Below are positions 58,944 through 63,277 of a stretch of 64,000 bases of DNA, in pieces. Origin of the DNA: Arthrobacter sp. ISL-95. GTDB taxonomy: Bacteria; Actinomycetota; Actinomycetes; Actinomycetales; Micrococcaceae. Both the position numbers and the translations under genes were made by a program. The first letter of the stretch is position 1. The number at the start of each line of letters is the position of its first letter. The stretch spans positions 124,001-188,000 of the forward strand of contig NZ_JAGGPR010000001.1 of NCBI RefSeq assembly GCF_018613695.1, in the 5' to 3' direction. Under the pieces are notes generated by a model. The model did no database searches. It worked only from the letters and a program-made list of their open reading frames with translations, and was not told the origin of the DNA.

Positions 58944-60458
58944 ATGAATCAATACGTCATCGCCATCGATCAGGGCACCACCAGCTCCCGTGCCATCGTC
59001 TTCGACCACACGGGCAACATCGTCTCCACAGGCCAGATGGAGCACGAGCAGATCTTCCCGCAGGCCGGCTGGGTGGAGCACAACCCCGCCGAAATCTGGA
59101 ACAACACCCGCGAAGTCATTGCCTCAGCCCTGTCCAAGGCGAACCTGACACGGCACGACATCGCCGCCGTCGGCATTACCAACCAGCGCGAAACCGCTGT
59201 CGTCTGGGATAAGAACACCGGCGAGGCCGTCTACAACGCCATCGTCTGGCAGGACACCCGCACCCAGCCGATCGTCGATGAACTGGCACAGGACGGGGGA
59301 GTGGAGCGCTTCAAACAGAAGGTCGGCCTTCCGCTGGCAACGTACTTCTCCGGCACCAAGATCAAATGGATCCTGGACAACGTCGAAGGCGCCCGTGAGA
59401 AAGCCGAAGCCGGCGACCTCCTCTTCGGCAACACCGATGCCTGGGTTCTTTGGAACCTGACAGGCGGTGTGGACGGCGGTGTGCACGTTACTGACGTCAC
59501 CAACGCCTCCCGCACCCTGTTCATGGACCTTGAGACACTGCAGTGGGACCAGGAAATCCTGGACGTCTTCGGTGTCCCGGCCTCCATGATGCCTGCCATC
59601 AAGTCCTCCTCCGAGGTGTACGGCCACGTCCACACCTCGCAGTTGCTTCGCGAAACGCCGGTAGCCGGCATCCTCGGCGACCAGCAAGCAGCAACCTTCG
59701 GTCAGGCCGCATTCCAACCAGGGGAAGCCAAAAACACCTACGGCACCGGCTGCTTCCTGATCTTCAACACCGGCGAAGAGATCGTCCACTCCAAGAACGG
59801 CCTCCTCACCACCCTCGGCTACAAACTGGGCGACGCCAAGCCGCACTACGCCCTCGAAGGATCCATCGCCGTCACCGGGTCCTTGATCCAGTGGCTCCGC
59901 GACAACCTCGGCATGATCAGCTCCGCCCCGGAGGTCGAGGAACTCGCCGCCGGTGTTAAGGACAACGGCGGCGTTTACATCGTCCCGGCGTTCTCAGGCT
60001 TGTTTGCACCGTACTGGCGTGCAGACGCACGCGGCGCGATCGTCGGCCTCACGCGGTTCGCCAACAAGGGCCACATCGCCCGGGCGGCACTGGAAGCAAC
60101 TGCTTTCCAGACACGCGAGGTACTCGACGCCGTCAACGCCGATTCAGGTGTCCCGCTCACCGAACTGAAGGTCGACGGCGGCATGGTCGCCAACGAAGCC
60201 CTCATGCAGTTCCAAGCAGACATCCTGGGAGTACCCGTAGTCCGTCCGAAGGTGGTCGAAACCACGGCCCTTGGCGCTGCCTACGCCGCTGGCCTCGCGG
60301 TCGGATTCTGGAAGGACCTGGGCGAGCTCAGCGCTAACTGGAACGAAGACAAGCGCTGGGAACCGCAGCTGCCGGCAGAAGAGCAGGAGCGCCAGCTGCG
60401 CCTCTGGAAGAAGGCTGTAACAAAGTCGATGGACTGGGTCGACGAAGATGTGAAGTAG
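58944..60458 (+). CDS. glpK: Glycerol kinase
   Basis: 504 aa from ATG 58944, with AAGGA about 10 nt upstream. Traps glycerol as glycerol 3-phosphate. FGGY-family motifs: [59 protein letters not shown], the ATP site [17 protein letters not shown] and [15 protein letters not shown]. Length and spacing are normal. A strong terminator follows. Confidence 0.96.
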
Positions 60459-60470
60459 TCATCTCACGAC

Positions 60471-60547
60471 AGAGGTTCCGGGGACTCCCGCCCGCCCGCT
60501 TCGCGGTGCCCACCACACCATGGCGGGGAGTCCCCGGAACCTCTTTT
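60471..60547 (+). terminator. Intrinsic terminator after glpK
   Basis: Very long stem: AGAGGTTCCGGGGACTCCCG (60471-60490) pairs with GGGGAGTCCCCGGAACCTCT on the 3' side ending 60544, followed by TTTT-type U-tract. Separates glpK from the leuS leader. Confidence 0.85.
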
Positions 60548-60601
60548 GGCGCACGGCCGTCTTACACCCAGCCCATGGGTTTGGTGGGGTAAGGTATTGG
60601 T

Positions 60602-60628
60602 ATGCGTGCGATCCTTCTGCTTAGCTAG
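60602..60628 (+). CDS. leuS leader peptide MRAILLLS
   Basis: Eight codons: ATG CGT GCG ATC CTT CTG CTT AGC then TAG. Three consecutive Leu codons after one Ile, just before a hairpin and an intrinsic terminator and upstream of leuS, form the classical pattern of ribosome-mediated attenuation. Translation could start with AAGG 7 nt upstream. Alternatively TAAGGT (60590-60595), 6 nt before the ATG, may be a -10 box giving a leaderless start. Below normal annotation length. Confidence 0.65.
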   Translation: MRAILLLS

Positions 60629-60654
60629 CCGCTCGGCTTTACTAGCCGTGCGGC
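60628..60654 (+). other. Leader hairpin overlapping the leader-peptide stop
   Basis: GCCGC-T-CGGCT pairs with AGCCG-T-GCGGC around TTACT; one U-U mismatch. It starts at the last base of the leader stop codon, where a ribosome stalled on the Leu codons would disturb it. Confidence 0.65.
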
Positions 60655-60655
60655 C

Positions 60656-60680
60656 GCCCCTCCATTGTTGAGGGGCTTTT
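60656..60680 (+). terminator. Attenuator terminator in the leuS leader
   Basis: GCCCCTC pairs with GAGGGGC around a 7-nt loop, followed by TTTT. It lies 69 nt before the leuS GTG. GGTGGGG at 60583-60589 could pair with its left arm (6 of 7) if transcription starts upstream. Confidence 0.75.
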
Positions 60681-60748
60681 GTGTGTCCGGGACATTCCGG
60701 TGCCAAGCAGGAGTCAAAACCGCCATCGAAGAACAGAAGAGGGCAGCA

Positions 60749-63277
60749 GTGAGCGTTCAGCCGGAGACAGAGACCGGAACAGCACCAACAGCCGCAGCCG
60801 AAGTGCCTGAAGAGGGCGTCTACAGCTTCGCTGCGATGGAAGCCAAGTGGCCGCAGGTGTGGGAGGACCTCAAAGTCTTCACCCCTGCCGACGACGGTTC
60901 CAAGGAACGCCGCTACGTGCTGGACATGTTCCCCTACCCCTCCGGCGACCTCCACATGGGCCACGCAGAAGCGTTCGCCATGGGCGACGTCGTAGCGCGC
61001 TACCTGCGCCAGAAGGGCTTCGACGTCCTGCACCCCATCGGGTGGGATTCTTTCGGGTTGCCTGCTGAGAACGCTGCGATCAAGCGCAACGCTCACCCCA
61101 GCGAGTGGACGTACGCCAACATTGACACCCAGGCGGCGTCGTTTAAGCGTTACGCCATCTCTGCCGACTGGTCCCGCCGCATCCACACGTCAGACCCGGA
61201 GTACTACCGGTGGACCCAGTGGCTGTTCAAACGCTTCTACGAGCGTGGCCTGGCTTACCGCAAGGACTCACCCGTTAACTGGTGCCCCAAGGACCTCACC
61301 GTCCTGGCGAACGAGCAAGTAGTCAACGGTGCTTGTGAGCGTTGCGGCACGCCTGTCACCAAGAAATCCCTGAATCAGTGGTACTTCAAGATCACCGATT
61401 ACGCTGACCGCCTCCTCGAAGACATGGACCAGCTGAAAGGCCACTGGCCTGAGCGCGTTCTGGCCATGCAACGCAACTGGATCGGCCGTTCAGAAGGAGC
61501 CCACGTACGCTTCGTCATCGAAGCCACGCAAGACCGTGCCGAGCGCGAAGTTACGGTGTTCACCACGCGGCCGGACACCCTCTACGGTGCAACGTTCTTC
61601 GTTGTCGCAGCGGATGCGCACCTGGCCCTGGACCTGGTGACTCCGGAACAGCACGATGAATTGATGGCCTACCGCGAGAAGGTCAAGGCCCTCTCCGAAA
61701 TCGAGCGCCAGTCCGCCGAACGCGAGAAGACCGGCGTCTTCACCGGCCGCTACGCCATTAACCCGCTCAACGGCGAGAAGCTCCCCGTGTGGGCCGCTGA
61801 CTACGTCCTGGCCGACTACGGCACAGGTGCCATCATGGCCGTGCCGGCCCACGACCAGCGCGACCTCGACTTCGCCAATGCCTTCAACCTGCCTGTCCGG
61901 GAAGTGTTGGAGACCGGCGCCGAAGACCCGGCAGAGACCGGTATTGCCACTGCCGGCGAAGGTAAGCTGAAGAACTCCGGTGACCTGGATGGCTTGTCCA
62001 AGTCCGAAGGCATACCCGCAGCAATTGAGATTCTGGAGAAGCTGGGAACCGGTGAGAAGTTCGTCAACTTCCGGCTGCGTGACTGGCTGCTGAGCCGCCA
62101 GCGTTTCTGGGGCACCCCTATCCCCATCATCCACTGCGGTGAATGTGGCGAAGTGCCCGTCCCCGACGACCAGCTCCCGGTCAGGTTGCCGGACAACCTG
62201 CGCGGTGAGGCGTTGTCACCCAAGGGAACTTCACCTCTGGCCGCCGCTGTCGAGTGGGTCAACGTCCAATGCCCCAACTGCGGCCGTGCTGCGCAACGTG
62301 ACACGGACACCATGGACACGTTTGTGGACTCGTCCTGGTACTTCCTGCGGTTCGTCTCGCCCGACTACACCGAAGGCCCGTTTGATCCCGAAAAGATCAA
62401 CAATTGGATGCCCGTTGGACAGTACGTAGGAGGCGTGGAGCACGCCATCCTGCATCTGCTCTACGCACGTTTCTTCACCAAAGTCATCAAAGACATTGGC
62501 CTGATTGAGGCCAACGAACCGTTCTCGGCACTGCTCAACCAGGGCCAAGTACTCAACGGCGGCAAGGCCATGAGCAAGTCCCTGGGCAATGGTGTGGATT
62601 TGGGCGAGCAGTTGGACAAGTTCGGCGTCGACGCCGTCCGCCTCACCATGGTCTTCGCCTCCCCACCGGAGGACGACGTCGACTGGGCGGACGTTTCGCC
62701 GTCGGGTTCGGCCAAGTTCCTGGCCCGTGCCTGGCGCCTTGGCCAGGACGTCAGCAGCGAACCCGGTGTCGATCCTGCCACCGGTGACCGTGCTCTGCGA
62801 ACAGTCACGCACAAGACCATCGCCGACGCCGCCGAACTGTTGGACAACAACAAGTTCAACGTGGTGGTTGCCCGTCTGATGGAGCTGGTTAATGCCACGC
62901 GCAAGACCATCGACTCGGGTGCAGGTGCCGCAGATCCCGCCGTTCGTGAAGCCGTGGAAGCCGTAGCAGTGATCCTGAGCCTCTTTGCGCCATACACCGC
63001 TGAAGATCTCTGGAACACCCTCGGCCACCCTGCTTCCGTGGCCAATGCGGGCTGGCCTCAGCACGACGACGCACTGCTGGTTCAGGATACGGTCACCGCA
63101 GTGGTCCAGGTTCAAGGCAAGGTTCGCGACCGCTTGGAAGTCTCGCCGGACATCACCGAGGACGAGCTGCGTGAACTCGCCCTGGCCTCGGACAACGTCC
63201 AGCGGGCCCTGGACGGCCGCGGCATCCGGACGGTTATCGTGAGGGCACCTAAACTGGTGAACATCGTCCCTGCCTAG
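60749..63277 (+). CDS. leuS: Leucyl-tRNA synthetase
   Basis: 842 aa from GTG 60749, with GAGGG 5 nt upstream; the open frame extends to 60665 into the terminator. Class I synthetase with HIGH-type [17 protein letters not shown]1 editing domain ([39 protein letters not shown], each quoted in part), and the second signature as [10 protein letters not shown], where the family canon is KMSKS. C-terminal anticodon domain and ARELA-type tail ([17 protein letters not shown] is quoted from it). A 30-residue Gln/Glu/Ala-rich head precedes the catalytic core. Apparently controlled by leader attenuation. Confidence 0.95.

Follow-up and report, generated by a model that had tools for sequence, protein, structure and literature searches.

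The trp-type attenuators of enteric bacteria are built from an antiterminator and a terminator that share bases. Attenuators on synthetase genes are not new, and for leuS they have been predicted in Streptomyces coelicolor and S. avermitilis (Seliverstov et al. 2005, PMC1262725), predictions that are compared here through their description in the text and not through the drawn antiterminator helix. In S. lividans TK24, the report on LeuL2 describes, in the part drawn on here, a leaderless ORF (MRAVRLLLSEPR and a stop codon) with a hairpin and then a uridine stretch between it and leuS (PMC8079986). Another actinobacterial Leu leader peptide, the LEU element of leuA, is described, in the part of the 2005 paper used here, as lacking an intrinsic terminator and as having Leu codons that pair with the Shine-Dalgarno box (PMC1262725). 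Finally, for ilvB1 of Mycobacterium tuberculosis, a ribosome at the stop codon has been proposed to mask ∼26 nt and thereby to prevent formation of the antiterminator, and the portion of the text considered describes the two structures as mutually exclusive (PMC13236596). In the literature searched, we found no printed description of a leuS leader in the Micrococcaceae.

The leader analysed here lies on the plus strand of the window, that is, the whole 64,000-nt stretch of Arthrobacter sp. ISL-95 DNA under study, between the end of the glpK ORF (60458) and the GTG start codon of leuS (60749). The leuS gene (60749-63277, start picked by eye) encodes a leucyl-tRNA synthetase of 842 aa, whose closest named matches, including that of Paenarthrobacter nitroguajacolicus, are 97% identical. 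Directly 3′ of glpK, a GC-rich long inverted repeat followed by TTT (60471-60544) is presumably the terminator of the glpK unit, parting that unit from the leuS leader. All the pieces listed in the initial annotation are present and base-exact: a -10-like box TAAGGT (60590-60595); an 8-codon ORF, MRAILLLS (60602-60628), with the Leu codons CTT CTG CTT (60614-60622), the last of which (60620-60622) is the presumed sensing codon; a UAG stop codon (60626-60628) preceded by an AGC codon; a hairpin, hereafter P1 (60628-60654, GCCGC U CGGCU - loop - AGCCG U GCGGC), the presumed antiterminator, whose 5′ arm begins within the stop codon; a linker of 1 nt (C60655); and an intrinsic terminator (60656-60687) with its stem at 60656-60676 and its tail, TTTTGTGTGTC, at 60677-60687. 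In this tail TTTT runs to 60680 and is followed by GTGTGTC to 60687; here and in the homologous tails, the sequence is kept beyond the needs of a U-tract.

RNAfold folded 60602-60690 into P1, the terminator and a weak 5′ helix at -37.4 kcal/mol (z -3.1), an energy that none of 200 shuffles matched. A simple terminator scan of 60300-60900 returned the terminator of the leuS leader as the sole terminator-like site, which on its own is weak evidence because the shuffled region gives 0.4 ± 0.6 sites; it is the conservation across relatives described below that argues against a chance arrangement. No Rfam 15 family, T-box included, matched the 64-kb window at its gathering score.

The window leader has the features of a leader-peptide attenuator, namely a short ORF rich in codons for the regulated amino acid and an intrinsic terminator before the gene, and also those of the LeuL2 type: the same gene, a leaderless MRA-like short ORF with a run of three Leu codons (MRA...LLLS), and a hairpin and U-tract terminator directly before leuS. 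It is homologous to the S. lividans leader. Four loci (L139, L141, L142 and L143) encode the exact LeuL2 peptide and share CTTCTGCTTAGC.AGCCGC with the window. The two leaders differ, as far as the published description goes, in where translation ends: in the window UAG falls at the first base of P1 and the peptide has 8 residues, whereas LeuL2 ends at UGA after the 5′ arm of P1 and has 12.

We then compared the upstream regions of leuS genes among relatives. From a search of 61 genomes of the genus we took 50 leuS upstream regions, all of which (50/50) carried leader, P1 and terminator; with two loci added later the count was 52/52. TGCTTA, AGCCGC, GCCCCTC and GAGGGGCTTTTGT were invariant in the own-genus alignment. 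The element was present in 32/57 loci from other genera of the family, the remaining 25/57 being without it by the criteria used, and in 18/47 examinable loci of the class outside the family, a non-random sample made up of 28 loci with the best HMM scores and 20 picked by hand, many from larger genomes, from which L111 was excluded with 66 nt of upstream sequence only; G088, with an incomplete leuS, was not in the sample. Among the class loci, L110 has the element (MRPTVRLLAGPR and a stop codon, last Leu codon CTC), L116 has P1 and the terminator in a sequence that does not include the leader start and was not counted as a match, and L110, L115 and L116 stand outside the codon, covariation, folding, spacing, pairing and pause statistics. 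The element was not found upstream of leuS in L080, L128 and L137. One family match, L075, was judged false; the codon and covariation set includes it, as one of its 33 family rows, and the folding, spacing, pairing and pause sets do not.

Of 80 named loci, 58 had the element and 22 were without it by the criteria used, one (L288) having 42 nt upstream only and another (L314) being scored in a frame that is probably not that of the leader. Records of Arthrobacter, Paenarthrobacter, Pseudarthrobacter, Specibacter, Sinomonas, Zafaria and Renibacterium carried it, as did some of the records of Glutamicibacter, Kribbella, Actinomadura, Auraticoccus, Propionibacteriaceae and Nocardioidaceae. Among these loci, no record of Kocuria, Rothia, Micrococcus, Nesterenkonia, Yaniella or Auritidibacter was found to carry it. 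A pattern of the terminator and part of its tail, which demands TG in the tail and allows a variable gap, matched 93/197 family genomes in 16/32 genera, with one match each in 90 of the 93, while the reversed control pattern gave 0 matches. No leader was found at L189, L193 and L230, so some matches to this pattern are not leuS leaders. The leuS element is real and conserved and, by these comparative signs, functional. Two loci depart from the common layout. In L066, from another genus of the family, P1 is missing, and the leader MAYFLG leads straight into the terminator, the left arm of which begins within the leader's stop codon; this may be a natural variant or the product of decay, and it bears on the role of P1. 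In L221, P1 and the terminator are kept and the start codon and Leu run are seemingly lost, so that the leader looks decayed.

The promoter of the leader also recurs. TANNNT stands exactly 6 nt 5′ of the start codon in 50/50 own-genus loci that were chosen without a promoter criterion; other spacing counts were picked for a -10 box, and only these 50 loci are free of such selection. Because of this spacing, the 5′ end of the leader RNA is probably A60602, the first base of the leader's ATG. This favours the leaderless start that the initial annotation had offered as an option, and it removes the antiterminator proposed there, GGTGGGG at 60583-60589, which lies upstream of the -10 box, should therefore be absent from the RNA and is not kept among the own-genus upstream sequences listed.

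The choice of the last Leu codon in the leader is far from the background in leuS genes. The last Leu codon was CTT in 52/52 own-genus leaders and in 14 of the 16 class rows (CTC in the other 2), and among the 33 rows from other genera of the family it was CTT in 22, CTA in 7, CTC in 2, CTG in 1 and TTA in 1, the TTA row being the false match L075. In 57 leuS genes with 3982 Leu codons, CTT occurs 150 times (3.8%) and CTA 16 times (0.4%); thus the last Leu codon is nearly always one of two triplets that together account for ∼4% of the Leu codons of leuS genes. Rarity of the presumed sensing codon would fit a stall sensor. The exceptions within the genus concern the other positions, the middle Leu codon being Val in L012 and the first being Ile in L033. 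Conservation of the Leu codons and of the stop codon had been put forward as a check; the former held, and the stop proved not to be strict, being kept in 46/50 own-genus loci of alignment A1, with L017, L027, L029 and L047 reading on into P1. In loci L139 and L141-L143, the 5′ arm of P1 lies in Glu-Pro-Arg codons and the stop comes after that arm; in most family loci the stop falls at the first base of P1 because the GAG there is UAG.

The geometry around P1 is more constant than the stop. The minimum free energy fold has a hairpin just 5′ of the terminator in 95/100 leaders (52/52 in the genus, 30/32 in the family and 13/16 in the class). From the end of the last Leu codon to P1 there are 5 nt in 77 of these 95 folds and 4 nt in 11, and the linker between P1 and the terminator measures 0 nt in 59, 1 nt in 32 and 2 nt in 4. 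In 48/52 own-genus and 22/30 family folds, the stop codon begins 1-2 nt ahead of P1's first base; in 13/13 class folds it begins 7, 8 or 11 nt beyond that base. It is thus the distances from Leu codon to P1 and from P1 to terminator that are kept, and not the position of the stop. Within 3 nt of the terminator core, 85/100 real leaders had a hairpin of 7 bp or more, compared to 311/2000 shuffles. Compensatory stem changes, which the initial annotation had also named as a check, were found for P1 in the family outside the genus, where the 32 distinct rows contained 57 cells changed on both sides versus 31 ± 4 after shuffling (0/1000 as many) and the proportion of paired cells was 0.62 versus 0.48 ± 0.02 (0/1000; slid registers 0.34-0.46), figures that are not probabilities because the shuffles ignore relatedness. 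Extra pair types in the same rows showed no excess over shuffles (165/1000). Within the genus, where the first five pairs are invariant, P1 covariation was no better than in shuffles, and nor was it in the class set alone, with 2 both-side cells versus 1.1 in shuffles (307/1000).

The initial annotation had seen no clear antiterminator, and we likewise found no conserved pairing partner for the arms of the terminator. Pairing of the Leu codons with the 3′ arm of P1, an alternative hairpin in some loci, exceeded a probability of 0.5 in 1/100 free RNAs and was rejected as a general solution; pairing of the Leu codons with an AGCAGG-like stretch 3′ of the terminator is good by eye and no better than in shuffles. 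Exclusion by shared bases was not found either, since P1 ends 0-2 nt before the terminator in 95/95 folds. The terminator had a probability of at least 0.5 in 98/100 leaders when free, in 100/100 with a ribosome at the last Leu codon and in 99/100 with a ribosome at the stop. Because the predicted terminator forms in every ribosome state, P1 and the terminator are not mutually exclusive by pairing. The unusual part of this leader is a pair of abutting, non-overlapping hairpins with nearly fixed spacing.

We consider it likely, from the comparative evidence, that the element is a leucine-responsive, ribosome-mediated transcription attenuator of leuS in which P1 hinders the terminator. Its core, a leucine leader-peptide attenuator of leuS, is what the initial annotation had proposed, and conservation, codon choice, the covariation of P1 in the family and the Streptomyces homology all speak for it. 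In this mechanism, a ribosome would begin to translate the leaderless 8-codon ORF as RNA polymerase transcribes first P1 and then the terminator. With charged tRNA-Leu plentiful, the ribosome would move past the last Leu codon and into the 5′ arm of P1, the base of which is 5 nt further on, and open it; the terminator would then form and most transcripts would end near 60683-60687. With leucyl-tRNA short, the ribosome would stall at the Leu codons and P1 would remain folded, one base from the terminator stem, where it could sterically hinder closure of that stem in the exit channel, allowing polymerase to read through and more LeuRS to be made. The switch would very probably raise enzyme output when charged leucine tRNA runs short. 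We infer that the ribosome stalls, that leuS output rises as leucyl-tRNA runs short, and that P1, which would itself be the antiterminator, acts sterically. As in the trp-type and ilvB1 systems, the position of the leader ribosome would decide between antiterminator and terminator, and the sign agrees with that proposed for ilvB1 in the text cited above; unlike the mutually exclusive structures described there, P1 and the terminator of the window abut and share no bases.

The reach of the ribosome sets a limit on this model. With 12 nt masked beyond the first base of the A site and the ribosome at the last Leu codon, the probability of P1 was above 0.5 in only 7/100 leaders. A 12-nt reach would thus open P1 at that codon, and the model therefore requires that the ribosome stall at one of the preceding Leu codons or unwind less RNA ahead of it. 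With an unwound reach of ∼11 nt from the P site, a stall at any of the three Leu codons would leave P1 closed, and a ribosome at the stop would cost P1 its lower pairs. That P1 in the actinobacterial leuS leaders blocks termination sterically while sharing no bases with the terminator, the ribosome opening an abutting hairpin instead of choosing between overlapping ones, is a more tentative proposal, to which we give less than an even chance.

The same leucine attenuator could be built in another way if the leader codons GCGUGCGA (60604-60611) paired with the U-tract tail UUGUGUGU and aided release: a Leu-stalled ribosome would cover the leader start, a ribosome at the stop would free it, and P1 would be merely a pause hairpin or an insulator. 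RNAalifold proposes such a helix on alignment A1, with 3/400 cells broken and none changed on both sides, and pairings of 8-10 bp between leader and tail occur in L058, L089, L091 and L093. Leader starts also paired with their own tails better than shuffled leaders did, both in the genus (-6.2 versus -3.4 ± 0.5; 0/300 as good) and in the family (-4.55 versus -3.0 ± 0.2; 0/300 as good); the class leaders, however, showed no clear excess (p 0.11), and tails swapped between species pair almost equally well (p 0.08 in the family, 0.19 in the genus and 0.18 in the class; 0.07 to 0.53 in a separate test). The comparison with shuffled leaders leaves out L191 and uses manually assigned starts for L211 and L214. 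In its tail set TTTTGTGTGTC far outnumbers any other tail, and the set is biased by single-locus pieces taken from matches to the terminator pattern, which requires TG in the tail; the pause test was done without those pieces. The tail may be kept for a different reason, as a pause site: the elemental pause pattern G-10 Y-1 G+1, as given in the part of PMC12288461 drawn on here, is present in 52/52, 32/32 and 12/16 leaders of genus, family and class, against a background of 78%, 62% and 46% in shuffled tails. At the moment of decision, moreover, the tail would probably still be part of the RNA-DNA hybrid. We therefore hold a release by leader-tail pairing to be unlikely.

Readings that abandon leucine-sensing attenuation have less in their favour. 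The terminator might be a premature one in which rare Leu codons sense the general speed or coupling of translation, leuS being set by overall translation; indeed, in L073 and L077 the Leu count of the leader is down to one and yet hairpin and terminator persist. Most leaders nevertheless hold a Leu codon at a fixed distance from P1, ahead of the gene for the Leu synthetase, and in the same genome leuA and a leuA-like gene likewise have Leu leaders, which makes a switch lacking leucine specificity improbable. Translational control, with Leu codons pairing with the purine-rich AAGCAGGAG 5′ of the leuS start, has a precedent in the leuA LEU element, described in such terms in the part of Seliverstov et al. 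(2005, PMC1262725) used here; in the window, CUUCUGCUU is able to pair with AAGCAGGAG, 3′ of the terminator, and 6/52 genus loci reach a rank p of 0.05 or less. Against shuffled downstream sequence, however, the median rank p was 0.23 in the genus, 0.71 in the family and 0.56 in the class, and in the window 20/100 shuffles pair as well as the real downstream stretch. Pairing of Leu codons with the downstream Shine-Dalgarno region, the feature of the LEU element, is thus at chance at leuS, and we give translational control of this kind hardly any credence.

Through this comparison the published Streptomyces leuS leader gains counterparts in Arthrobacter-like soil bacteria and in several further groups of Actinobacteria. 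The comparison also yields a geometric rule that reporters could test, in which a rare Leu codon is set 5 nt from P1 and P1 0 to 2 nt from the terminator. Should P1 indeed act without base sharing, a class of attenuators would escape searches that require antiterminator and terminator to overlap.

The Leu leaders of the other genes in the same genome encode VRAAMLLLSCRGEA and a stop codon (L317, around 1335, before leuA) and MLYGLLLLRRHGGA and a stop codon (L318, around 1284), the latter preceding the second, leuA-like gene, which scores under the family cut-off. Within the leuA leader VRAAMLLLSCRGEA lies CTTCTTCTTAGCTGCCGC, which resembles CTTCTGCTTAGCTAGCCGC in the leuS leader, and this likeness hints at a shared origin or constraint.
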